A stretch of 51,302 nucleotides of DNA. Origin: a bacterium. GTDB taxonomy: Bacteria > SZUA-79 > Acidulodesulfobacterales > Acidulodesulfobacteraceae. The DNA lies in the NCBI GenBank assembly GCA_027318865.1, contig DAHVOJ010000008.1, positions 1-51,302 of the forward strand, written 5' to 3'. This document shows positions 2,303 to 16,381 of the stretch, one piece after another. Each line of letters opens with the position of its first letter. Positions within the stretch are counted from its first letter, which is position 1. The translations under genes were made by a program, and so were the position numbers. The notes under the pieces were generated by a model that was given only the letters and a program-made list of their open reading frames with translations, made no database searches and was not told the DNA's origin.

Positions 2303-2351
2303 TGGTAGGCGGAGCAGGGTTCGAACCTGCGACCCCCGGCTTGTAAAGCCG
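2303..2351 (-). repeat. truncated tRNA-Val 3' half (distal att site of island)
   Basis: These 49 bp are identical to 15899-15947, the 3' half of the intact tRNA-Val, from the CCA end to the anticodon stem. Similarity ends abruptly after 2351. Together with the integrase beside the intact tRNA, this marks the far boundary of a 13.6-kb integrated element. Confidence 0.93.
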
Positions 2352-3439: not shown

Positions 3440-3483
3440 AAGATAAGAATAGAAGTAAGAAATTTCTATCGGCAATTTTGATA

Positions 3484-3655
3484 CTGTCAAGTTTTTTAGA
3501 GTTTTTAATGCCTACGGCATTACCGTCGTTATCCACGCCGATTACAAGCCGCCCCCACCTTCGATATTTGCAAAAGCGCACAATGACTTCAGGTTTTCGT
3601 CCCGCCAGCTTTCTTTGAATTCGACTAATTGTGATTCGGCTTTATTCGGACACAT
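3484..3655 (-). pseudogene. AlbA_2 domain gene remnant, frameshifted and truncated
   Basis: Reading the minus strand from the ATG at 3655 gives MCPNKAESQLVEFKESWRDE and then LKSLCAFANIEG, the hallmark start of the AlbA_2 (Schlafen-type) domain. The frame breaks in a G-rich run near 3550. In another frame it continues as LVIGVDNDGNAVGIKNSKKL, again classic for this domain. The similarity then stops near 3484, where a motif shared with 51228-51245 begins. Such domains are common in defence-related regulators and helicases. Only about 55 of several hundred expected residues remain, so the gene is dead. Confidence 0.75.
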
Positions 3656-3737: not shown

Positions 3738-4196
3738 TTAACCAGCTATTATCGATTTCTTTAAATTTAAAATATTCTTCACTTTATCTACGCAACTATT
3801 CAAATTTTCCTTTATTTGAAAATCCCAGAATCTCAAAACCGCCCAACCTTGTCTTTCTAATTCCGCATTGACTTTTTCATCCCTTCCGATATTGCTTTCT
3901 ATTTTATTGCGCCAGAATTCTTCATTGGTTTTAAAAGAATGGATTTTAGTTTTCATGTTTTTATATCCGTGCCAGAAAGAACTGTCACAGAAAATGGCTA
4001 TCTTATATTTAGGTATCGCAAAATCTGGTGTCCCGTCTATCTCAAAGTGCTTCCTGTATCTTATGCCGGCCGACCACAATGCTTTACCTAAAGATTTTTC
4101 TATTGAAGTATTTTTTGCCCTGATACGAGACATGCAGAAACTGCGTTGCTCCGGGGTAAGTTTATCACGTTTAACCCCAACTTTATTATTTTTCAT
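3738..4196 (-). CDS. Vsr-type (very short patch repair-like) endonuclease
   Basis: The 152-residue protein matches the Vsr fold: a conserved start RSFCMSRIRAKNTSIEKSLG, the core GTPDFAIPKYKIAIF with the catalytic aspartate, FWHG, EFWRNKIESN and GWAVLRFWD. In E. coli, Vsr nicks T:G mismatches arising from deaminated Dcm sites. Here the zinc ligands of the classical enzyme appear replaced: the residue before FWH is Ser, downstream positions are Tyr/Met, and Asp stands in WEC. The D and H of the active site remain. The start at 4196 was chosen because it overlaps the helicase stop by 11 bp, implying translational coupling. An upstream extension to 4340 lies inside the helicase gene. It is the last gene of the methyltransferase-helicase-Vsr operon. 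Confidence 0.88.
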   Translation of the reverse strand: MKNNKVGVKRDKLTPEQRSFCMSRIRAKNTSIEKSLGKALWSAGIRYRKHFEIDGTPDFAIPKYKIAIFCDSSFWHGYKNMKTKIHSFKTNEEFWRNKIESNIGRDEKVNAELERQGWAVLRFWDFQIKENLNSCVDKVKNILNLKKSIIAG

Positions 4197-7100
4197 ATAA
4201 ATCTCGATATGCACCCACCTTCTTAATGCCGCAAAATCCTGTGAAATCGCATTTTTCACAGCGAATTTCGGCTCCCGCGGCCCCGGCCAGTGACATCGGC
4301 CCCGATTTAAACTTTCTATCGCGTATATCTTTAGCGACATTCGAAACCGTTTCTTTTGCCTTTATAATAGACTCGTCGTCCAGGAGTATCGAAAGCTCGG
4401 ATTCAGGAAGATTCTCGGCACCGAGATACCTGACTATCCCTTTCTCCGGCTGGTATTCCAACTCCCTTTTCGCGGCCGCGGCGTATAACGCCACCTGTAG
4501 CTGCATCTCCCGCTCATCCAATTTCTGATGAGTATCGGATTCCGGATCGCCGGATTTAAAATCGATAATGGTAACTTGGGGCGGGTCGTCGCGCCTTATT
4601 ATATCTATCGCTCCGGAGACAAGAGCGCCCCCTTTCCCGTCCTCGTATTCTATCAGCGTTTCGAACGCTTTCTCGGGCTCGAAAGTAAGGGTGGATAATT
4701 CAGAGGCATAACGTTCTACATAATCCGCTACGACTTTGACTCCTTTAGCACGCATATTATCGGCAGGTTCGCCCGTCGTGTAGCGAAGGTAAAAAAGACC
4801 CCTATCGATAAGTTTTTGGAGTTCTTTTCTTAAAGAGTCCTTGTCTTTTGCCAAATCTGACCACTTCTTCGGTTCCAGATGTATTGCTCTCATAAGATTA
4901 TGAATTCCGCGGCCGTAACCGAAAGCCTGGTCTATCGCAGGTGAAAATCCCAATACCTTCCTTAGATAAAAATCGTGAGGGCACTCCAGATAATAGCGCA
5001 TATCCGAAAAGGATGTGGCAAGGCGAATGTCCCGGAGGTGCTCTTTATCGGAATACTTCAGTTCGTTTAAAACATTTTCGGAATCCGATGTTACTATTCC
5101 TCCGCTCTCCCTTATCAACGGTTCTAAATCTTTAACGAAGCCGGAAACCCTGTTTCCCGAATGACTTAAAAAAAGAAACCTCTCGGACCTTGTAAGAGCG
5201 ACATACATGAGACGACGTTCCCCGTCGTAGTTGGCGTTATCGGCTAAGTTATCTATATCCATTTCCTGGCTGATAGGTTCGGAAAGAGGCAATTTAGGCT
5301 TTCTTTTGGAATAAATACTTGGAAATCGTTTGTCATTGATATCCGCGAGAAACACAGCGGCAAATTCCAGTCCTTTCGCCGCATGGATAGTGCAGATACT
5401 TACCGCGTCCGGTTTCACCATAAGAGGTTCTTCTTCGACACGGCCCTTTTCCGCACCGTATTGACATAGACCTATGATTTGCCAGTGATAATCCTTTGAG
5501 CTCGTCCAACCCGGCGTTTCGATACCGGTAATCAGTCCGCTCAACGCTCCGAGATGAAAAAGAGCGGATTGACCGCGTCCCTCGCAAGTATCCCACGCAT
5601 CGGCTTCGGCTTCCGACAGAAGCATGTGATAAAGCCGTTGCGGAAACACCCTTCTAAGCTCGTTTCGGGAAATAAGAAAATTGCGAAGTGCGGGGGTTCG
5701 GAATACGGAAGCCCTATCGGCGGTAAGATAGCTGTTTTTGGCTATCCTGTCCCGTATAGCCCGAGCCGCCGAAAGCACCCTGTCCTCGGCTTCCCTTCGA
5801 AAAGAAAGACCGGTTCGGCGGACAGCCACGGCAGACTCGCGAAAAATATCTTCCGGTTCAGTAAAATCTCCCAAAACAGATTTGATGCGCTCAGGCAAAC
5901 TTTTCGGGTTATGAGTAGAACCCACAAATTCGGATATTCCGGCGGTAACGGCGAGCGCGGAGAGAAGAAGAAGAACTTCTGGCTGAGAGAATAAATCCGG
6001 ACCAGCCTGAACGATGCAGGGAATACCAGAGGATTCGAGAGTTTCCATATACGTTCTTGCATCGGTCGAGGAACGCAAAAGTATCGCGACGTCTGACAGC
6101 GTCAGCCCCCGATGCGAACCGTCCCTCTTATCGTGGAGAGCACCCTCGAAGTCGGAAGGCACAAGAATACGGACGGCTTTGGAAATCCATTTAGCTTCTT
6201 GTTTCCGGTCGTCGAAACTTATCATAGCTATATGAGATTTATGATGATCTAATCTTTTTTCATTGCCGTGCTTCATGAGAGCGGTCGTCATGGACTTTAT
6301 TCCGCCTATGGTATCTGCCCACCGATTGGCGATGTCGATTATTTTAGGAGTTGACCTGAAATTTTCTTCCAAATCGATAACCTCCGAATCGGCCGCTTCA
6401 GTGAATTCCTCCCATAGTTCTCCGGTTATTTCTACCTTTGCGCCACGGAAACCGTATATCGCCTGACGATGATCGCCCACAGCTGTCAATTTCCCTTTTT
6501 CCCCGACCAACAATTCTATAAGGCTTTTCTGAACCTGGTTTATATCCTGTATCTCGTCTACGACAAGATGGATTCCGCTTTCGGACAAAGACGACAGCCG
6601 TTTACCGTCGCTACGAAGTCGTCGCACGAGCTCGGTCTGCGACGTGCTGAAATCCAGAAATCTGCGGCAGCGGATGTAGGCGTAGTATCTTGATGCGGCA
6701 ACGGCAAAAGCCACGGCAGCTGGGGTATCGCCGACATCCGTAAGAAGGCGCGCCTTTTTACACCATTCCTTTTCGGAAGGTCCTAATTCCTGAGGAGCGT
6801 TGCCGGAATCGAGTTCGATATCGAAAAGGTCGTACTCGTGAAGCAGGTCGTAAGTCCGAACAAAGGTTTCCAACGTCGCATATTGGTTAGATGGAATCGC
6901 ATCAGAGAGGGATTTTAGTCCTAACAATCTATGAAACTCTCTGAGTATCAGCGCGGTCCTTGAACTTTCGTCGAGAATATCAAAGTTATGATAACTATCC
7001 GGCCAATACTCCCGAAGTTTCGCTATGCAGAATCCGTGAATTGTGCCGATGTACATTCCGCCGAGAGCCGTTTCTTCGCCCTCAGGCGTGATTAGACCAA

Positions 7101-7338
7101 GCCAACGGCGGATTCTGAATTTCATTTCCTCGGCCGCCCGCTCCGTAAAAGTAAAAGCTATTATTTTCTCTTTAGGAATTTCTTCGATACCGACCCACCA
7201 AGCTATCCGGCGCGCCATAACCTCGGTTTTACCGGAACCGGCTCCGGCGATGACGAGAATCCGGCGCTTCAGGGACTTGACAGCTTGAGACTGTCTTTCT
7301 GTCAATCCTTCCAAAAGAATTTTTTCCGTATCTTCCAC
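4186..7338 (-). CDS. UvrD/PcrA-like SF1 helicase with C-terminal PD-(D/E)XK Fe-S nuclease
   Basis: A 1050-residue helicase-nuclease. Superfamily 1A motifs occur in order: Walker A AGAGSGKT (31-38), TFTERAAEEM (about 62-72), Walker B DEIQD (261-265), GDHRQAIYGFRGA (288-300), ENFRST, TIHAAKGLEF and ERRLMYVALTRS. The C-terminal part carries a Cas4/AddB-like nuclease: GAIDII, then IIDFKSG with D926 and K928, then QVALYAAAA. Cysteines C786, C1027, C1030 and C1036 are placed as for a [4Fe-4S] cluster. This architecture fits end-processing of DNA, as in AddB/RecB relatives, but no AddA/AddB partner is present. It sits between the cytosine methyltransferase (18-bp gap) and the Vsr gene (11-bp overlap), so a role in defence or modification-linked DNA processing is inferred. 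GC content looks higher than in the neighbouring DUF262 gene. Confidence 0.92.
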   Translation of the reverse strand: MEDTEKILLEGLTERQSQAVKSLKRRILVIAGAGSGKTEVMARRIAWWVGIEEIPKEKIIAFTFTERAAEEMKFRIRRWLGLITPEGEETALGGMYIGTIHGFCIAKLREYWPDSYHNFDILDESSRTALILREFHRLLGLKSLSDAIPSNQYATLETFVRTYDLLHEYDLFDIELDSGNAPQELGPSEKEWCKKARLLTDVGDTPAAVAFAVAASRYYAYIRCRRFLDFSTSQTELVRRLRSDGKRLSSLSESGIHLVVDEIQDINQVQKSLIELLVGEKGKLTAVGDHRQAIYGFRGAKVEITGELWEEFTEAADSEVIDLEENFRSTPKIIDIANRWADTIGGIKSMTTALMKHGNEKRLDHHKSHIAMISFDDRKQEAKWISKAVRILVPSDFEGALHDKRDGSHRGLTLSDVAILLRSSTDARTYMETLESSGIPCIVQAGPDLFSQPEVLLLLSALAVTAGISEFVGSTHNPKSLPERIKSVLGDFTEPEDIFRESAVAVRRTGLSFRREAEDRVLSAARAIRDRIAKNSYLTADRASVFRTPALRNFLISRNELRRVFPQRLYHMLLSEAEADAWDTCEGRGQSALFHLGALSGLITGIETPGWTSSKDYHWQIIGLCQYGAEKGRVEEEPLMVKPDAVSICTIHAAKGLEFAAVFLADINDKRFPSIYSKRKPKLPLSEPISQEMDIDNLADNANYDGERRLMYVALTRSERFLFLSHSGNRVSGFVKDLEPLIRESGGIVTSDSENVLNELKYSDKEHLRDIRLATSFSDMRYYLECPHDFYLRKVLGFSPAIDQAFGYGRGIHNLMRAIHLEPKKWSDLAKDKDSLRKELQKLIDRGLFYLRYTTGEPADNMRAKGVKVVADYVERYASELSTLTFEPEKAFETLIEYEDGKGGALVSGAIDIIRRDDPPQVTIIDFKSGDPESDTHQKLDEREMQLQVALYAAAAKRELEYQPEKGIVRYLGAENLPESELSILLDDESIIKAKETVSNVAKDIRDRKFKSGPMSLAGAAGAEIRCEKCDFTGFCGIKKVGAYRDLYEK

Positions 7339-7356
7339 TATATCCCCCTTCCCATA

Positions 7357-8412
7357 TTAACAAAACGCGAAAAGCTGCTTTTTTATTTCTAAAGCGTGTT
7401 TATAGATGAACTTAGGGGGCAAAGCGTTGCCTATCATAAGGGCTATTCTGTCCCGCGCAATATTTGTCGGAAATCTGTAGTCTTCTCGAAAAGTTTGCAA
7501 TAAAAGTGCCTCCCTAAGCGTTATAGCTCTGTCTTCCTCCGGGTGAAGAAAACGACCTTTCGACGGATTAATGCAACCTCCGGTAATCGTGGGCGAAACG
7601 TCGTCCCACTTCATGCGGCCGTAAACATCCCTAAATCCGCTCGGGTAACGGATATGGCACGGAAGCCTGTATTTTTTAGGCAGATCAGTTCGGCTTCCAC
7701 CGTTTTTAGGTATCAAACGAATCATTTTCTCGATTCTTTCGCTTCTTTTAACGGGATAATCGTGTAAGGGGTCGTTTCCATTTCCCTGCGCAGGAACTTT
7801 TTGTAAAACTTGACGAACGGTAACGCTGGTTTTATCAGGTTCGGCGAAATCTATCTTTTTATTAAACGCTGTTATCAGAACCATACGTTTCCTTCGTTGA
7901 GGAACTTCATATCTTGATATATCGAGAATTTGTAAAGATTCGCCGTCTATATGATAACCCAACGATCTTAGGTCGAAAAGAATCTTCTTCATCCGGTGGT
8001 CGCGGAAAAGCCCTGGAACGTTTTCCATCATCACGGCTCGGGGCATTAAATCTTTGATAAGTCTTAATAAATCGAAAACGAGGTCGTTACGCTCGTCATC
8101 TATAAAATAAGCGCCGTTTTTCGTTCTCATGCTGGAAAACCCCTGACATGGCGGGCACCCCGCCAGAAGACCGAGTTCGCCCTTCTTAATTCCTAACGCT
8201 TTCTTAATTTTATTACCGGTTATTTCTTTAATATCCTCGTTCCAGAGAAAAACTTCCGGATGATTGAGTCTGAATACGTCGGCGACTACGGGTTCTTTCT
8301 CGATAGCGCCGATTACTTTAAAACCAGCCAGTTTAAGACCTTCCGTCAGTCCTCCGATTCCGCAGAAAACATCTATAGCCGTGATATCCGCCATCGTTTT
8401 TACATTTTCCAT
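7357..8412 (-). CDS. DNA (cytosine-5-)-methyltransferase
   Basis: The 351-residue protein carries the C5-methyltransferase motifs in order: AdoMet site FCGIGGLTEG (motif I, about 16-25), catalytic PPCQGFSSM with C89 (motif IV), MMENVPG (motif VI), VPQRRKRMVLI (motif VIII) and MIGNALPP (motif X). The target-recognition region is short, about 80 residues. It would place 5-methylcytosine at an unknown sequence. It heads a tight operon with the helicase-nuclease and Vsr genes, and the Vsr partnership is typical for 5mC enzymes. No ordinary type II restriction enzyme is adjacent; if restriction occurs here, the helicase-nuclease, Vsr or the DUF262 protein would have to provide it. No clear ribosome site is seen; ATG at 8394 is an alternative start. 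Confidence 0.95.
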   Translation of the reverse strand: MENVKTMADITAIDVFCGIGGLTEGLKLAGFKVIGAIEKEPVVADVFRLNHPEVFLWNEDIKEITGNKIKKALGIKKGELGLLAGCPPCQGFSSMRTKNGAYFIDDERNDLVFDLLRLIKDLMPRAVMMENVPGLFRDHRMKKILFDLRSLGYHIDGESLQILDISRYEVPQRRKRMVLITAFNKKIDFAEPDKTSVTVRQVLQKVPAQGNGNDPLHDYPVKRSERIEKMIRLIPKNGGSRTDLPKKYRLPCHIRYPSGFRDVYGRMKWDDVSPTITGGCINPSKGRFLHPEEDRAITLREALLLQTFREDYRFPTNIARDRIALMIGNALPPKFIYKHALEIKKQLFAFC

Positions 8413-8555
8413 GTAATAATTTATTATTTAAAAAGTATCATTTTTGCTTTTCTCAGATTCCATTAATATTCTTATATAATTCATAACTTCGTTAGATTAA
8501 TCTTATTTATAAACAAAAAGATTACGTTATTAATCTACATAAGCAATACTAATAA

Positions 8556-10688
8556 TTATTTAGAATCAACTATCGTGTTGTTTATTTTTTGAATTTCTTT
8601 ACGTGCTCTAATCTCTTGATCTCTTAAGCCAACGCTAATATCAGATGAACTTAATTCTAATTTTTCCAACATTAAAATTATGTTATTCGTTATAGCACCT
8701 ACATTTAGATTACTTTCGACAAAAATATTATCTGAAATTTTTATAGACCTTCTCAAACTGCTCTCATTTTCTGATAATTTATTCCTAAAATCATTATCGA
8801 ATAGAAATGTCTTAAATTTTGTTGGTTCTAAATCAAACAATAACAAACACATTTTTTCGTAAAAATTTGCCCAAGAATTTGCATCATATCTCGTTCCCAT
8901 AAATTCAAAATATTTTATTTTTTGCCCGGAAAAATCATTTTCTTCATCTAATGAATACATGTTATCTATAGATTTAGGAGATATATATGTCGCTTTTGGA
9001 TAATCCCATATCTTAATAGCTTTATCCGTGAGAATATTTGATCTGTGCAATATACTATCCTCGCTCCAAACATCAATATCTTTTAAATATTCATTTAAAT
9101 ATAGCTTACTTTCATTAAATCCGTGTTCCATATTCTTTTTCTCAGAGAAAGATTTATTGCTGTATTTAGAATTATATGCCGTTAATGTAATATTACCTAT
9201 TGTATTTAAATATTTTGCATAAATTTCCTGATATCTACCCCCTAAAGTCTTTTTCCAAGATGCGTTTAAAGTTTGCGGCATTATATGTTCTATTGATAAT
9301 TCATTATTATCGAGTAGTTTTTGAATATCTATTTTTTCTTTATTGTTATAATTTTCCAAACGTTCAAGTAAATGTAATTTATTTTTTCGATTAATGTTAT
9401 AAACATCTTTTAAGGTCATTTTTTCTTTAAATTCCTGATCATTTGGAAATCTCTGACTCCCCCTTTTTTGAGTCAATATATATTTTAATATTTCGATATA
9501 ATTTGTTTTATAATCATTATTTTTTTTAATATCTCTAGCGAGGGACATGAAAATTTTGTTTAATGAATTTGCTGGCAAATCGCAAATAATACGTCTAAAA
9601 ATATACGATTCTATTATTTCAAGTAATTCTGCAATCTCATTTTCTTTTAGGCATTTTTCTTCATCAAAATCGTTAAAAACTTCTAATAAAAATGGGTAAG
9701 AAACTGATACTTCAAGCTTAGACAAGAAATATAAATATTTATTTACCTTATTATTTGATAAAGTATTATTATAATTAGCACTTAAAATATAATTGTAATA
9801 TTTTGCAAATTTCAAAAGCTCTATAAGTAAATCCTCCAATCTTTCTCTTTTAAAATTATTATTAAAAAATTCTTTAAACTCAAAATACACATTATCTTTA
9901 TTAGGCGCTTTTTTTTCTTTGCACGTTATATAATCGCGGATAAAATTACTAACGTTGAATTTTGTATATTTTTCTATCGCAATCCAATATTTATTGTAAA
10001 ATTCTTCTTGTTTTTGATATTCCAAATTCATTAATAAAAAATTCCTAACTTTATCTGCCTCTGTTAAATCAAGACCGGTTGAATTTAAACTTTCGAATAT
10101 TAATTGTGGGTCATCTTCATCTTTTTTCAACTTTATTTCAACAATATTAAGCTTTTTAATAGAAGTTAAAAAATCTGAAAAATTAACGCTTTCATTTAAT
10201 AAGCGTTTTTCAAAATATAAATAATTATGGGTAATATTGGAAGAAAGTATAAATTCTTTTTTCTCGTCAGTTTCAAATAATTTTATAAAAGCTTCATTAT
10301 CTTCCTTGACTGATTTCAATTTTATTTTTTCCTTTCCTGAATATCTGCCAAAAAGATATTCATTTTTAACCGCATTAATATCAATATCTTTTATATTTTT
10401 TGTCTTTATTGCATTTATAAATGCCAATAACAATAAAGAAACTGTCGTTATCCTTTGTTGTCCGTCTATTATAATAAATTCCTGACCATTACTGTCATCA
10501 TTATAAATATAAACAATTGAGCCAAAAAAATGGGATTTTCTCTGAAATCTTGATATATCTAATAAATCCTCATACAATTTTTTACAATGTTCTATTTTCC
10601 AGTCGTAATTTCTTTGATAAACCGGTATAATAAACCTTCTATCATGTCCTTCTAAAAACCGCGTCAATTTATTTTCATCAGCTTTCAT
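8556..10688 (-). CDS. GmrSD-type DUF262/DUF1524 restriction-like protein
   Basis: The 710-residue protein starts with a DUF262 domain: IPVYQRNYDW (21-30), HFFGSIVY and the hallmark DGQQR (75-79), a ParB/Srx-like NTP-hydrolysing module. Near residue 475, LSIEHIMPQTLNASW and GNITLTAYNSKYSN mark the DUF1524 HNH-type nuclease. A further C-terminal domain of about 120 residues (FMGTRYDANSWANFYEKMC, FVESNLNVGA) resembles small modules attached to other restriction proteins. The family includes GmrSD and BrxU, type IV enzymes that cut modified phage DNA. The gene is much more AT-rich than the methyltransferase and helicase genes and ends 143 bp before the methyltransferase start, on the same strand. 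It may be a separate cargo gene or part of the same cassette. Confidence 0.9.
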   Translation of the reverse strand: MKADENKLTRFLEGHDRRFIIPVYQRNYDWKIEHCKKLYEDLLDISRFQRKSHFFGSIVYIYNDDSNGQEFIIIDGQQRITTVSLLLLAFINAIKTKNIKDIDINAVKNEYLFGRYSGKEKIKLKSVKEDNEAFIKLFETDEKKEFILSSNITHNYLYFEKRLLNESVNFSDFLTSIKKLNIVEIKLKKDEDDPQLIFESLNSTGLDLTEADKVRNFLLMNLEYQKQEEFYNKYWIAIEKYTKFNVSNFIRDYITCKEKKAPNKDNVYFEFKEFFNNNFKRERLEDLLIELLKFAKYYNYILSANYNNTLSNNKVNKYLYFLSKLEVSVSYPFLLEVFNDFDEEKCLKENEIAELLEIIESYIFRRIICDLPANSLNKIFMSLARDIKKNNDYKTNYIEILKYILTQKRGSQRFPNDQEFKEKMTLKDVYNINRKNKLHLLERLENYNNKEKIDIQKLLDNNELSIEHIMPQTLNASWKKTLGGRYQEIYAKYLNTIGNITLTAYNSKYSNKSFSEKKNMEHGFNESKLYLNEYLKDIDVWSEDSILHRSNILTDKAIKIWDYPKATYISPKSIDNMYSLDEENDFSGQKIKYFEFMGTRYDANSWANFYEKMCLLLFDLEPTKFKTFLFDNDFRNKLSENESSLRRSIKISDNIFVESNLNVGAITNNIILMLEKLELSSSDISVGLRDQEIRARKEIQKINNTIVDSK

Positions 10689-10809: not shown

Positions 10810-11337
10810 TCAGAACCTCATTATCGCCTCTAACTTTATCCCGTTTAATACATAAACATAAACAATATTACCGTTATAAGCCTGCGCCTTGCCTATTACC
10901 CTGTATCCGTAATAATTAGCAGTCGCCTTGCCGTATTGTTTTGCCTCTGCGATAACATTATTTATAACAGGTTTAATGCCGTTTGGCAAGCTATTCCAGC
11001 CTGCCATATTGGTATTTTTAACTTCTGCTATATTGCCGCCGCATATCTTGTAATTTTCGATAGCCCAGTATGCAAGTTTCGGAAAACCCTGCGTGCGCCT
11101 TATGATACTTATGAGTTTACAGCCGGACATAGTCGTCGTTAAAGGCAAAGCGTTATAAGTATAAGCTCCGCTGGCAAAGGCAAACGGACTGCCGGAATTA
11201 TACACCCGCATCGCAAGTTTATTGAAGTTAGGGTCGGATTGGTTGTAGGGCGGGCTTAGGACGGAAAAGGCGTAAACAGAGTTTGCGGAAAATATGATAA
11301 GCGCAAGTATAAATATTTTTATTTGCTTTTTAATCAT
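10810..11337 (-). CDS. hypothetical exported protein
   Basis: The 175-residue protein opens with a clear Sec signal peptide: basic MIKKQIK, then a hydrophobic core to about residue 20 and a likely cleavage after VYA (about residue 23). The mature part is a small globular, Tyr/Asn-rich protein with two cysteines (SGCKL and KICGG) that could form a disulfide in the periplasm. I do not recognise a family. It lies inside the tRNA-Val island between the DUF262 gene and the replication region, on the minus strand, with no partner gene. No function can be assigned. Confidence 0.6.
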   Translation of the reverse strand: MIKKQIKIFILALIIFSANSVYAFSVLSPPYNQSDPNFNKLAMRVYNSGSPFAFASGAYTYNALPLTTTMSGCKLISIIRRTQGFPKLAYWAIENYKICGGNIAEVKNTNMAGWNSLPNGIKPVINNVIAEAKQYGKATANYYGYRVIGKAQAYNGNIVYVYVLNGIKLEAIMRF

Positions 11338-11862: not shown

Positions 11863-12609
11863 ATGTTAGAAATTTATCAAATTTTAGGTTTGTATAAATC
11901 AATTCAATTAGCGTTGATCAATCAGAAGGGACGGATCCTTTTATGTTTGGCTAATCGCATTGATGACATTGATTTTGGCAAGCTGAAAAGAAGAAATGCA
12001 GACAATGGAATATATTTTATACCTATGGAAAAATCTAATATTTTATTTTTAGACGATTTGGCGGATAGAAATATAATTCCATATCAGTCGTTAATTATTG
12101 AAACGAGTCCCGAAAAATATCAAGCGCATATTTTTACAAATACAACGATGAGCCCTGAAGCAAGGACGAAGTTGCAACGTCAACTTGTCAAAGATTTTAA
12201 CGCCGATCCGGGCGCAACATCTGGCATGCAACCACGCCGGCTGCCTGGATTCGAAAATCAAAAATATCAGGAACGGCCAATCGTATTTATTGCAAAAAAT
12301 ACGATTGGCGACCATAACATTCCTATTCTTGATATTTTCAAAATCGAGTCAGTTTATCAAAAACAAGGATTTGCTATTAGGCATTACAATTCAAATCCTA
12401 AAAAGCTGAAAAAATCTTGGAATGATTTTTTTGCTGGCGATAAATCTTCCGCCGATTTCCGCTACGCTCTATATCTCTTCAGGATAGGTTATACCGACGG
12501 TGAAATACAAGGGCGGTTAAAAAGTGAAAGCCTTGAGCTTTTTAAAAGAAAGCACGGTCACTTGAAAGATTATCTTAACCGCACGATTCGCAAAGTTCAC
12601 CTCTATTAA
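11863..12609 (+). CDS. RepB-type primase domain protein of the mobile element
   Basis: The 248-residue protein resembles the RepB primase domain found in plasmids and integrative elements. Signs are the central YQSLIIETSPEKYQAHIFTN and the later FNADPGATSGMQPRRLPGFE, the typical DPGA...RLPGFxNxK signature. It would prime or start replication of the excised element. A consensus AAGGAGG lies at 11852-11858, four bases before the ATG. A hairpin in the leader (11797-11842) could modulate translation. It is the first plus-strand gene of the island, and its 3' end abuts the inverted repeat at 12616. The assignment rests on motif memory, so it is moderately sure. Confidence 0.65.
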   Translation: MLEIYQILGLYKSIQLALINQKGRILLCLANRIDDIDFGKLKRRNADNGIYFIPMEKSNILFLDDLADRNIIPYQSLIIETSPEKYQAHIFTNTTMSPEARTKLQRQLVKDFNADPGATSGMQPRRLPGFENQKYQERPIVFIAKNTIGDHNIPILDIFKIESVYQKQGFAIRHYNSNPKKLKKSWNDFFAGDKSSADFRYALYLFRIGYTDGEIQGRLKSESLELFKRKHGHLKDYLNRTIRKVHLY

Positions 12610-12616
12610 TATATAG

Positions 12617-12629
12617 GGGGGCTGTGTCT
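12617..12629. repeat. inverted repeat, left copy
   Basis: GGGGGCTGTGTCT here is the exact reverse complement of 14623-14635. The pair brackets the two-gene recombinase module and lies right at the 3' ends of the converging primase and integrase genes. Confidence 0.6.
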
Positions 12630-12692
12630 GTATGCATCCTTTAAGGCAAGGTAGATTTTTATAGCCTTAAATCCCTTATATTTCCTTACGTT

Positions 12693-12732
12693 GCTTTAAA
12701 CCTCTCTTTTTGGCAAAAGAGAGGTTTAAAGC
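12693..12732. repeat. perfect 18-bp hairpin with TGGC loop
   Basis: The arms (12693-12710 and 12715-12732, each beginning or ending in GCTTTAAACCTC) pair without mismatch around a four-base loop. No T-run follows on either strand, so it is not a standard terminator. A recombination or single-strand origin structure is possible. Confidence 0.7.
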
Positions 12733-13012
12733 CTGCAAGCGTAGTAATTACCTGCATTTAAAGCTAATTTTAATTTGTAATTATTTTAAAAAAATCTACC
12801 GGTTGAATTTACATTTTGCGTCAAATGACGATAGATGTAGTTGCCGATATTTATATTTTTATACCATTTTTATATATTATGGCCCTCTGCGGATGCAGTA
12901 AATTCGGCGCTTTGAAGCGCTTTGACATTTAAGCAAATTACCGGCCCCGCGTATATAAAAAATGATATGAAGATATTTGTTGAAAAAAATTATCGTAGGA
13001 GAGTCGCGTCTT

Positions 13013-13090
13013 AAAAGCGGCATTGAAGGATTTGTTGATATTATACCTTGACAGGTTTATTGACGTTTACCTTGCAATGCCGCTTTTTTT
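13013..13090 (+). terminator. stem-loop with T-run upstream of the recombinase pair
   Basis: AAAAGCGGCATTG (13013-13025) pairs with CAATGCCGCTTTT (13075-13087), with AGG/CCT able to extend the stem, and a run of T follows. The 49-base loop is long. It ends about 38 bp before the next start codon. It could be a terminator, an attenuator or a small structured RNA. Confidence 0.5.
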
Positions 13091-13127
13091 ATTTTGTTAA
13101 CCCATAAACATAAAGGAGGTGATTAAA

Positions 13128-13427
13128 ATGGGGAAACTGTTGACTTATTTTGAAAGGAATTCAGAAAAGTTTTTGCCTTTAAGACATCAAAACACTCTTA
13201 AAACCGAGGAACAGCATAAACAAATAATCCGTCAATTTATTAAATACGCCGAAAGTCTCGGAATTAATCATACAAAAAAACTTAACGAAAACGTGGTTGC
13301 AAAATACATTAAAGAAAGGCTTTCGAAAAAATCCCCGGAAACTAAAAGGAAACATAAAATTTGGTTATTCATAATGTATAAAAAATTAAATAAAAAGGAG
13401 GTTAGAGATTATGTCAAAAATCTATGA
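13128..13427 (+). CDS. small SAM-like core-binding protein of recombinase pair
   Basis: The 99-residue protein looks like a free-standing N-terminal core-binding (SAM-like) domain of a tyrosine recombinase: helical, basic, with EEQHKQIIRQFIKYAESLGI and SPETKRKHKIW. There is no catalytic domain. A strong AGGAGGT lies seven bases before the ATG at 13128, so this start is preferred to the GTG at 13119. Its 3' end overlaps the next gene by 17 bp, showing translational coupling. It may assist the recombinase in binding DNA, as an accessory or directionality factor. This is inference from fold and position. Confidence 0.6.
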   Translation: MGKLLTYFERNSEKFLPLRHQNTLKTEEQHKQIIRQFIKYAESLGINHTKKLNENVVAKYIKERLSKKSPETKRKHKIWLFIMYKKLNKKEVRDYVKNL

Positions 13428-14403
13428 TATCAGGAACGACTTTAAAATTTCTTTGGTTGCAAGACAAATATATCCCGATAAATCAGCATCCGCTAAAAAA
13501 ACAAAGACGGTCATTAGGGAGTTTAAAACCGTAACCGGTATCAATAATCTTCACAATATAGATTCCCAAACGGTTAAAAATTATTACGATTATCTGCAAA
13601 ATTGCGGAATGTCGAACTCGGACGCCGCAAATAAGGTCAGCTATTTTAATCAAGTTCTCAAATATGCCGGAAAATCGGAACTCAAACAAACCGCCAAAGA
13701 ATTAAATTTAAGCAGACTAAACGACAATACAAATTATAAGGGCAATTCTGCGGCTGATATTAAAACCGTTAATGATTACTTTAAGGGAATTCAAAAAATC
13801 GAGTTTCAAGGGTTGTATTATGCAAATAGACTTCAGGAGGTTGCGGGTTTAAGGATGAGCGAGAGCGGCGGAATTAAATTACTTAATAAAAGCATTGAGG
13901 ATATTAAAAACGGGATTTTAAAAATTGATGGTAAAAAAGACCTAGCGAAAAACGATAAAGATAGAATTATTATTCTAGATAAAGACGGTATAAAAGCCGT
14001 ATTGGAGGCAAGGCAGTGGCTTAAAGAAAACGGACTTAAAGATATTGCGGCTTCTAAAAGAGATTCTAAAATGACGGAATGGTCGGCATGGAGCTGGAGA
14101 CAACTGGATAATTTAAAAAAGACCGGAATTATCGCGGCCGGTTACCATAACCACGGCAACCGGCACGCTTGGGCGAACAATAAATACGAAAACGAGTGGA
14201 AAGAAAGAACCGGCGCGGTAATAGAGGGAACGGCAAAAAGCGGGCTATTCGGCAAGGATTGGCTGCGATATGTTGAAATGAAAACGGGATTGTCCGCAGA
14301 AGAAATTAGAAAAATCGATACCGAAATACGGCTTGACATATCTCAACAGTTGGGGCACGAAAGGCTCTCCATAACGTCAACGTATCTCGGCAGAAAAGCT
14401 TAA
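13411..14403 (+). CDS. tyrosine recombinase (integrase_1-like)
   Basis: The 330-residue protein has an N-terminal SAM-like domain and a C-terminal catalytic domain. Active-site signs are GLRMSESGGIK (Arg region), YHNHGNRHAWAN (HxxR box) and QQLGHERLSITSTYLG (second His and Tyr). It resembles the integrase family with separate SAM and catalytic Pfam parts. GGAGG precedes the ATG, and it overlaps the upstream 99-residue gene by 17 bp. A strong terminator follows at 14413. It is distinct from the tRNA-adjacent integrase on the other strand, so the island holds two recombinases. The inverted repeats at 12617 and 14623 suggest it mobilises its own 2-kb unit. Confidence 0.8.
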   Translation: MSKIYDIRNDFKISLVARQIYPDKSASAKKTKTVIREFKTVTGINNLHNIDSQTVKNYYDYLQNCGMSNSDAANKVSYFNQVLKYAGKSELKQTAKELNLSRLNDNTNYKGNSAADIKTVNDYFKGIQKIEFQGLYYANRLQEVAGLRMSESGGIKLLNKSIEDIKNGILKIDGKKDLAKNDKDRIIILDKDGIKAVLEARQWLKENGLKDIAASKRDSKMTEWSAWSWRQLDNLKKTGIIAAGYHNHGNRHAWANNKYENEWKERTGAVIEGTAKSGLFGKDWLRYVEMKTGLSAEEIRKIDTEIRLDISQQLGHERLSITSTYLGRKA

Positions 14404-14412
14404 CACAATTTT

Positions 14413-14438
14413 AGCCCGCCTCGAGCGGGCTTTTTTTT
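14413..14438 (+). terminator. rho-independent terminator
   Basis: AGCCCGC pairs with GCGGGCT around a CTCGA loop and is followed by eight T. It lies ten bases after the recombinase stop and ends the plus-strand module. Confidence 0.92.
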
Positions 14439-14622
14439 ATTGCCGAAATAACGATGATTAGTACAGGAGAAAGAAAAATTGTTTGCGAGAAGTAAAATAA
14501 GAATTAAAAAAATTTATAACAAGCATAAAACAAAACTACTAAACATTTTGCCCCGCTTTGTCTGCTTACGTCTTTTACCCGGCCAGTGAGGTAAGTCGAG
14601 ATACCTCGTGCAAAATAGAAAA

Positions 14623-14635
14623 AGACACAGCCCCC
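14623..14635. repeat. inverted repeat, right copy
   Basis: AGACACAGCCCCC is the exact reverse complement of 12617-12629. It ends three bases before the integrase stop codon. A stem GAGGTA/TACCTC and TTTTGC/GCAAAA pairs lie just inside it (14549-14616). Confidence 0.6.
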
Positions 14636-14638
14636 GTC

Positions 14639-15670
14639 CTATTTCTTCCCCCACACGTCGTCCACCGCCTTCCTTAGCGTATCCGGCACTAAATGCGAAT
14701 AACGTTTTGTCATCTGGGTCGTCCTATGCCCTAACAGTTCGCCCGTAATATAAAGGCTCGTCCCGCCCATAACCATTTTGCTTGCGAATACGTGTCTTAA
14801 ATCGTGAATCCTTAAATCCTTTAATCCGGCGTTGCGGCAGGCGGTTTTAAAAGACCGCTTAAAATTGCCTAATTTTGCCCCTTTATTATTAAATACATAC
14901 AAACAGTCCTGATTTTTCTCAATACTCTTTAACAATTCTTTTAAGGGCTTTGATACGGGCATATACCTATCGTATTTCGTTTTCGTTCCCTTAATTGCTA
15001 TGACGTTATTTTGCAGATCCACATCGTCCCATTTAAGATTCAAGGCTTCGCCTTTACGGCAGCCGGTATAAATCAGAAAAGTTATTAAGTCCTTAGTAAG
15101 TTTATTCGTAGCTCCGGCGATAATCTTCTCGATGTCGGAGTCTGACAAGGTTTTAAGGCGGGATAATTCGTTGAGTTTCTTAATACCTGCGGCGGGGTTC
15201 TTGTCTATAAGTCCTTTTTTAATGCAGTAATTAAATAAATTATATAGTGTCGCAATCTCGATATTAACCGTTCTAAACGATATTTCGCTTTCTCGTTTAT
15301 CTTTGTTTTTAGGTAAGTTAATTATCTCAAGCCGCCTTTTAAGCTGATATGTTTCAATCTTATTAGCAGTTACAGACTGAATATAATCACTTGCAAACAT
15401 AGACAGAAAATGCTTTGCGGCGGTTTTTCTTCTCTCGATAGTTTTTATGCTGACTGATTGATTTCTAATATATTCAGTAAAAACTTCCTTAAAAACATAT
15501 TCCGGTTTGTATTTTGCAGGTAAATCATATTTGCCCCTAACAATTTCACCCCTAATTGCGTTCTCGACTTCTTCGGCAATCTTTTTATCTTTTGTCTGAC
15601 AGGAATGACGGTATAGTTTACCATCAAGCATAAATTTGCACCAGTAAATTTTACCCCTTTTATAAAGCAT
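14639..15670 (-). CDS. tyrosine integrase of the tRNA-Val island
   Basis: The 343-residue phage-type integrase has an N-terminal arm-binding region (GKIYWCKFMLDGKLYRH), a SAM-like core-binding domain and a catalytic domain. The catalytic signs are TGCRKGEALNLKWDD (Arg), HDLRHVFAS (HxxR), LLGHRTTQMTKRYSHL (His and Tyr). All catalytic residues are present, so it should be active. Its start lies 229 bp from the intact tRNA-Val, the usual arrangement for an element that inserts into the 3' half of a tRNA gene. A GGAGAT ribosome site precedes the ATG. Tandem TGTGCCCA repeats upstream may be its arm-type sites. Confidence 0.95.
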   Translation of the reverse strand: MLYKRGKIYWCKFMLDGKLYRHSCQTKDKKIAEEVENAIRGEIVRGKYDLPAKYKPEYVFKEVFTEYIRNQSVSIKTIERRKTAAKHFLSMFASDYIQSVTANKIETYQLKRRLEIINLPKNKDKRESEISFRTVNIEIATLYNLFNYCIKKGLIDKNPAAGIKKLNELSRLKTLSDSDIEKIIAGATNKLTKDLITFLIYTGCRKGEALNLKWDDVDLQNNVIAIKGTKTKYDRYMPVSKPLKELLKSIEKNQDCLYVFNNKGAKLGNFKRSFKTACRNAGLKDLRIHDLRHVFASKMVMGGTSLYITGELLGHRTTQMTKRYSHLVPDTLRKAVDDVWGKK

Positions 15671-15684
15671 TTTTAATCTCCTGC

Positions 15685-15706
15685 GACTGTGCCCAGACTG
15701 TGCCCA
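15685..15706. repeat. tandem GACTGTGCCCA repeats (possible integrase arm sites)
   Basis: Two exact 11-bp copies lie back to back (15685-15695, 15696-15706). A partial copy CTGTGCCTA follows at 15785, and a degenerate TTGTGTCTA shortly after. They fall between the integrase start and the attachment site, where arm-type binding sites are expected. Confidence 0.5.
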
Positions 15707-15898
15707 TATAAAAAATAAAAAAATTCCAATTTAGGTAAATATCGGAAATATCAGGCATTAGGGAAAGAAAAATATGAGCCTATACTGTGCCTAAAATTGT
15801 GTCTAAAATTCGTTAAAATTGATTAAATTTTATCAAAATTAAGAAATTATGTCAAGGTAGGATATTTGCAAAAATGCCTTAAATACTGCGTCTTTGAA

Positions 15899-15975
15899 TG
15901 GTAGGCGGAGCAGGGTTCGAACCTGCGACCCCCGGCTTGTAAAGCCGGTGCTCTAACCGGCTGAGCTATCCGCCC
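15899..15975 (-). tRNA. tRNA-Val (anticodon TAC)
   Basis: A 77-nt tRNA: acceptor GGGCGGA/TCCGCCT with encoded CCA, D-arm GCTC/GAGC, anticodon arm CCGGC-TTTACAA-GCCGG (anticodon TAC), T-arm GCAGG/CCTGC. Its 3' 49 bases (15899-15947) are perfectly repeated at 2303-2351, so it is the integration target rebuilt by the island. Confidence 0.97.
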
Positions 15976-16040
15976 AAAAAACAACCCTCATTTCTAAAAA
16001 ATTAGCGAAACCGTATAACTATAAAATGAGGGTTTAGATG

Positions 16041-16101
16041 AAACATATATTTTTCTGCGTGCATTGAAAAAGTATATCTTTTTCAGCAGAAAAATATGTT
16101 T
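16041..16101. repeat. nested palindromic repeat, copy A
   Basis: The outer arms AAACATAT...TTCTGC and GCAGAAAAATATGTTT pair, and an inner hairpin TGAAAAAG/CTTTTTCA sits in the loop. The core 16044-16098 closely matches 36691-36743. It abuts the hup stop codon and might also end the hup transcript, though no T-run is present. Confidence 0.7.
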
Positions 16102-16381
16102 ACTTTCCGGTATTGACTGCTTCTTTAAAAGATTTGCCGGCTTTAAATTTTGGCGACTTGGAGGCTTTAATCTGGATTTCTTTTCCGGTCTGAGGATTTC
16201 TGCCTTTTCTTGCCGCTCTTTTCGTTACTTCAAAAGTACCGAAACCTACAAGCCTGACTGCATCGCCTTTTTTTAAAGCGCCGATTATCGCGCTAATTGC
16301 GGCTGAAAGAGCTTTTTCGCTGTCGGCTTTCGTGAGTTTGGACGATTTTGCGATTGCATCTACTAATTCTGCTTTTGTCAT
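16100..16381 (-). CDS. hup: HU family DNA-binding protein
   Basis: The 93-residue protein is a standard HU: MTKAELVDAIAKSSKLTKAD at the N-terminus, VRLVGFGTFEV, the DNA-binding arm RKGRNPQTGKEI and the basic C-terminus. It bends and compacts DNA in the nucleoid as a dimer. AAGGAGGAAG gives a strong ribosome site. It lies downstream of clpX with its own promoter, the usual place after lon, but no lon gene is present here. Its leader carries a small hairpin (16430-16463) that could affect translation. Confidence 0.97.
   Translation of the reverse strand: MTKAELVDAIAKSSKLTKADSEKALSAAISAIIGALKKGDAVRLVGFGTFEVTKRAARKGRNPQTGKEIQIKASKSPKFKAGKSFKEAVNTGK

Follow-up and report, generated by a model that had tools for sequence, protein, structure and literature searches.

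A cytosine methyltransferase, a UvrD-Cas4 fusion and a Vsr endonuclease as a putative restriction-modification-like operon on an integrative element in tRNA-Val

Introduction

In a contig of a bacterium of the family Acidulodesulfobacteraceae (GCA_027318865.1, DAHVOJ010000008.1; its 51,302 nucleotides are referred to below as the window), the gene for a large helicase-nuclease lies between those for a C5-cytosine DNA methyltransferase (MTase) and a Vsr-family endonuclease, raising the question of what these three proteins might do together. Parts of such a set have been described before. Iyer et al. 2008 (PMC2292703) reported MORC-type GHKL ATPases encoded alongside Dcm and Vsr. Hudaiberdiev et al. 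2017 (PMC5704561) described UvrD-Cas4 fusions as monophyletic, placed them either with type III Mod/Res or with Dcm, the latter sometimes accompanied by Vsr, and proposed that they serve in defence, perhaps in an ancillary capacity.

Results

The three genes are transcribed from the minus strand in the order MTase, helicase-nuclease, Vsr (Table 1), with a gap of 18 bp (7339–7356) between the first two and an overlap of 11 bp (4186–4196) between the last two. This layout is as described in an earlier note made from the letters alone, and a PDDEXK_1 match and an alignment bore out its further claim that the helicase carries a C-terminal PD-(D/E)XK domain and four cysteines. The GC contents of the three genes are 0.485, 0.437 and 0.351, and the source assembly has a single gene matching PF00145 and a single gene for Vsr. 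The GmrSD-type gene lies 143 bp upstream of the MTase on the same strand and is a possible fourth member of the operon.

Table 1. Features of the integrative element and its methyltransferase operon in the window
Feature	Position	Strand	Evidence
Left att repeat, duplicate of tRNA-Val 3' end	2303-2351		49/49 identical to 15899-15947
Vsr-family endonuclease	3738-4196	minus	152 aa; PF03852 1.2e-24; TIGR00632 above cut-off; alignment
UvrD-type SF1 helicase + Cas4/AddB-like PD-(D/E)XK nuclease fusion (UvrD-Cas4)	4186-7338	minus	1050 aa, GTG start
C5-cytosine DNA methyltransferase (MTase)	7357-8412	minus	351 aa; PF00145 E 1e-50; motifs; tree
GmrSD-type (DUF262 + HNH-like) type IV restriction protein	8556-10688	minus	PF03235, PF07510; PADLOC Orf5 3e-146, HEC-06
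RepB-type primase of element	11863-12609	plus	PF16793 1e-14, PF22448
Tyrosine integrase beside tRNA-Val	14639-15670	minus	PF00589 9.8e-28
Right att repeat in tRNA-Val (15899-15975, minus)	15899-15947		exact repeat; empty site in seven relatives

The helicase and nuclease domains are contained in a single ORF, with matches to UvrD-helicase (PF00580, 1.5e-49), UvrD_C (PF13361, 2.6e-35) and PDDEXK_1 (PF12705, 9.9e-23). Walker A, DEIQD, H813, D912, D926, K928, Q948 and Y952 are intact; in an alignment of 17 full-length fusions, cysteines C786 and C1030 are invariant and C1027 and C1036 nearly so. AlphaFold gave a medium-quality model (pLDDT 66, pTM 0.71) to which AddA and UvrD were the closest solved structures, and this confirms the AddA/UvrD type only. 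The earlier note had allowed that the protein might be a known AddB with its own partner. That identity, along with AddA and RecB, was rejected because the helicase motifs are complete, the scores fall far under the equivalog cut-offs (AddA 186 bits against 708; RecB 115 against 696) and no AddA-like or other partner subunit is adjacent, the neighbours being the MTase and Vsr. Gabija was likewise discarded: GajB was the top PADLOC match, but no GajA match was present among the six neighbouring proteins scanned. Family scans of the trio for a recognised type II restriction enzyme gave no match other than Vsr itself.

The trio belongs to the cargo of an integrative element of 13.6 kb inserted at tRNA-Val, as indicated by a 49-bp exact repeat, an integrase gene beside the tRNA and an empty site in seven relatives. 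The tRNA at the right att repeat is tRNA-Val(tac), and in the seven congeners with the empty site (L273, L275, L277, L279, L280, L283 and L284) tRNA-Val, tRNA-Asp and tRNA-Leu lie close together in the region from clpX to yebC. What had been called a mobile island thus has defined ends. Within it, a second recombinase-like gene pair (13119–13427 and 13411–14403) has weak Phage_integrase scores, and a 175-aa ORF of unassigned family (10810–11337) has relatives at 75–78% in the vicinity of other restriction-modification (R-M) loci from this genus (L111, L114). Outside the element, small ORFs at 1938–2225 and 1317–1565 encode a CCDC90-like protein and a HicB-like antitoxin; the CCDC90-like ORF is kept between tRNA-Asp and tRNA-Val in two congeners. 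Relatives of the element integrase (59–63%; L108 2453–3457, L114 2514–3524, L105 13235–13999) are encoded no more than about 10 kb from MTase/Vsr or Mod/TnsA modules elsewhere in the phylum. This arrangement suggests one family of integrative elements with exchangeable R-M cargo.

Queries with the single helicase protein recovered no near relative in 30 genomes of the phylum. In viral contigs, and at a limit of 1e-40 in plasmids and phages, there was no match either, so alignment-based searches were needed. Within the host phylum, the fusion was present in 1 of 30 genomes, this one alone, and the idea that it is common to the host clade was dropped. Distant full-length plasmid matches (L019, L021–L024) all stood beside R-M genes; an alignment built from these drew mostly plain UvrD out of genome contigs, and the plain UvrD loci were used as a negative control. 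The alignment-based search identified fusions in 18 of 395 genomes (a hand count from the match table at the looser limit of 1e-120), 5 of 399, 19 of 394 and 19 of 346 in four phylum-scale draws, whose centres (a deltaproteobacterium, Ruminococcus, a methanogenic archaeon and Nitrospira) are the basis on which taxonomic breadth was judged.

Neighbours were searched with home-made profiles, which unusual families can escape, and by this means MTase, UvrD-Cas4 and Vsr were found within a few kb of each other in five genomes (L205, L222, L226, L227, L246) and two viral contigs (L285, L287). The first two without Vsr were found in L221 and in two further viral contigs (L286, L290). The co-occurrence that the earlier note had proposed to look for is therefore real, and three of these loci (L205, L246, L287) have the gene order of the window. 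The order is Vsr-MTase-helicase in L222 and L227 and MTase-Vsr-helicase in L226, and the MTase of L285 is divergent. In the same scan, an MTase or Vsr neighbour was present at 8 of 13 fusion loci versus 0 of 67 plain UvrD loci (Fisher p 4e-8). Many other fusion loci hold N6/N4 MTase and Res-like genes and lack Vsr.

Defence genes are found nearby in several cases: BrxL and PglZ in L205, ZorA and an HmaC-like DUF499 protein in L222, PDC-S36 in L246 and GmrSD in the window. In L205 the trio (5162–9743) adjoins the BREX genes BrxL and PglZ, and in L221 a HerA-like ATPase is near the MTase and UvrD-Cas4 (11957–16118), besides an HhH-GPD DNA glycosylase. Some trios are accompanied by a further candidate nuclease or ATPase (HNH in L287; NOV_C in L246 and L205; GHKL in L226; AAA_15 in L227, L285 and L287), and the three genes may thus be insufficient by themselves.

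In the helicase tree, the window protein falls in a starred clade of seven rows, of which the other six fusions all have Dcm and/or Vsr neighbours, and plain UvrD rows are separate from the fusion clade. Its nearest relatives are those of L285 (68% identical) and L222, with L286 at 58%. The nearest relative of the window MTase is that of L105 (69%), a member of the organism's own family. Because the two genes differ in their nearest relatives and GC is unequal across the operon, it is probably a mosaic, and the gene set may be a recent assembly. The unequal GC and the variable gene order could also be taken to mean that there is no system, only three genes of defence islands that became neighbours by accident. 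We consider this very improbable in view of the recurrence: the trio is found in bacteria, archaea and viral contigs, its genes overlap or nearly abut in several loci, and most trio helicases belong to the same starred clade, which L227 narrowly misses. The adjacency of the three genes is not a matter of chance, as the recurrence test speaks against it, and the joint recurrence in unrelated genomes and viral contigs supports the view that the three families form a module.

The catalytic motifs of the MTase are intact (FCGIGG, PPCQGFS, ENV, QRRKR, GNALP). The trio MTases form one clade with two GHKL-paired MTases (from a Pantoea prophage, L020, and L105), with a shared block in the region of target recognition, and this clade is separate from the MTases adjoining ordinary restriction enzymes (99/98 support). 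In viral contigs, prophage regions included, a GHKL, AAA_15 or UvrD-Cas4 ATPase lies within 4 kb of the MTase in 47 of 48 clade loci, several of which are nearly identical to one another or could derive from related hosts, so that they do not amount to 48 independent events; in the sole exception, L412, the contig stops just past the MTase. The AAA_15 ATPase, of about 600 aa and HEC-04-like by PADLOC, is a repeated partner of the clade (viral loci L365–L413, L285 and L287; L227). Vsr is present in a minority of the 48 loci and absent from most GHKL and AAA_15 loci. The pattern of ATPase partners may be new. Tentatively, this single MTase clade could be the self-marking unit for three swappable ATP-driven effectors (GHKL/paraMORC, AAA_15 and UvrD-Cas4), a unified restriction-like class that would dispense with a classical site-cutting enzyme and of which the window operon would be the helicase-nuclease branch; we would call this possible, with the balance tilted against it.

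The Vsr protein scores 122.9 bits against TIGR00632 (cut-off 97.85); its mechanical ORF extends to 4340, and the ATG at 4196 suits the domain. Directly after it, at about 3460–3655 on the minus strand, is a frame-broken stretch, recognised by eye, whose sequence looks like the beginning of an AlbA_2/Schlafen-like ATPase (SQLVEFKESW..., LVIGVDNDGNAVGI). Aligned to its E. coli counterpart, the window Vsr retains the PD motif and the aromatic wedge, including the T:G wedge residues FWH and FW..KI; it has the form DSxFWHG and lacks the zinc cysteines. A similar DSxFWHG form occurs in Vsrs of the phylum that stand beside NgoFVII, HaeII and HNH enzymes, and this likeness to proteins accompanying ordinary restriction enzymes argues for a mismatch-repair companion and not a new restriction nuclease. 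The same likeness, wedge included, weakens a different proposal, namely that the Vsr-fold protein is itself the restriction nuclease, which would nick unmethylated targets so that UvrD-Cas4 could load at the nick and degrade the strand. Vsr and the fusion are the sole possible cutters within the trio, the helicase stop is overlapped by the Vsr start, and ARMADA helicases carry Vsr-type nucleases as effector domains (PMC12458937). Vsr as first cutter is kept under consideration because in Caulobacter a Vsr-like protein sets off the SOS response when the methyltransferase is absent (PMC12907096). We nevertheless think the proposal unlikely, as Vsr is lacking in L221, L286, L290 and most GHKL/AAA_15 loci of the MTase clade. 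The glycosylase gene of L221, which adjoins the MTase in a locus where Vsr is absent, was considered as a sign of a repair role for Vsr and is only suggestive, since the gene is convergent and stands in a different gene row.

Discussion

We lean, by a modest degree, towards reading the operon as an R-M-like defence module on the 13.6-kb element, in which the MTase would mark self, UvrD-Cas4 would degrade unmarked DNA and Vsr would repair deaminated 5mC. This reading derives from the middle place of the helicase-nuclease, the intact motifs, the mobile location and the defence neighbours. In relatives of the same phylum, Vsr follows an MTase-HaeII or MTase-HNH pair, and NgoPII and NgoFVII enzymes adjoin other MTase-Vsr pairs; given this order of MTase, restriction enzyme and Vsr, the restriction enzyme's place appears to be held here by the helicase-nuclease. 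The MTase would methylate the DNA of host and element at its target. The fusion, with its AddA-like helicase and Cas4/AddB-type nuclease, would be the effector that unwinds and degrades incoming DNA, with the missing mark as the trigger. Vsr would correct the T:G mismatches that arise by 5mC deamination at the MTase target, an accessory role that fits with its being optional across loci. A helicase-nuclease such as UvrD-Cas4 would be expected to depend on DNA ends and does not select sites by itself. The motor might load on phage or plasmid ends, it might be directed by the MTase, or the first break might come from an additional, variable nuclease, perhaps GmrSD in the window. UvrD-Cas4 may also be ancillary and not the effector, because the fusion accompanies a full Mod/Res set in type III-like loci (PMC5704561).

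The retained T:G wedge residues would also suit a role outside defence, in which MTase and Vsr would pair methylation with repair and UvrD-Cas4 would replace MutL, UvrD and PolI in excising the strand once Vsr has nicked it; in mismatch repair, UvrD does act downstream of a nick (PMC2292703). Short-patch repair, however, does not need a long-range nuclease, the fusion family occurs with N6/N4 MTase and Res-like genes at many loci where Vsr is absent, and the trio is carried by mobile elements and has BREX, Zorya-like and GmrSD genes as neighbours. We therefore regard this explanation as quite improbable, and the restriction-like module as preferable to it.

Of the compact defence or processing system that the earlier note had envisaged, the recurrence of the module and its place among defence genes hold up. 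Its novelty does not, as UvrD-Cas4 with Dcm, and with Vsr in some cases, was published in 2017 (PMC5704561), nor does the position of a helicase-nuclease between MTase and Vsr amount to one, the order MTase-restriction enzyme-Vsr being common in the organism's family. The trio is a small, testable case of a predicted defence association, for which our literature search, thin in its coverage of subscription papers and thus weak evidence of absence, found no experiment on the UvrD-Cas4/Dcm/Vsr set. If the helicase-nuclease is the effector, restriction would be carried out by a recombination-type motor and not by a site-cutting enzyme. An MTase clade with three ATPase partners would also be a practical handle on how self-marking is coupled to differing effectors.

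When compared to known systems, the window locus is a fresh instance of the UvrD-Cas4/Dcm/Vsr kind predicted from genomes in 2017. It shares with the UvrD-Cas4-like (pfam12705) fusions of that study the domain fusion, the Dcm and Vsr neighbours and the predicted defence role; the portion of PMC5704561 covered here holds neither the MTase clade common to GHKL/AAA_15 partners, nor the tRNA-Val element, nor the recurrence counts. Like AddAB, AdnAB and RecBCD, the fusion combines a UvrD helicase with a PD-(D/E)XK nuclease, with AddA as the best fold match, and the four-cysteine cluster is likewise present in AddB and Cas4. Unlike those complexes, it is a single polypeptide encoded in an operon with an MTase. 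Gabija GajB also has a UvrD-like helicase; it carries no fused nuclease, and the window has no GajA. The paraMORC/MORC GHKL R-M operons (PMC2292703) resemble the window in their Dcm-type MTase and Vsr, and GHKL-linked MTases fall in the window MTase's clade, but their effector is the GHKL ATPase and not UvrD-Cas4. Type II R-M systems with a Vsr companion have the same gene order and, in the same phylum, a similar form of Vsr, whereas in the window UvrD-Cas4 stands in the place of the restriction enzyme.
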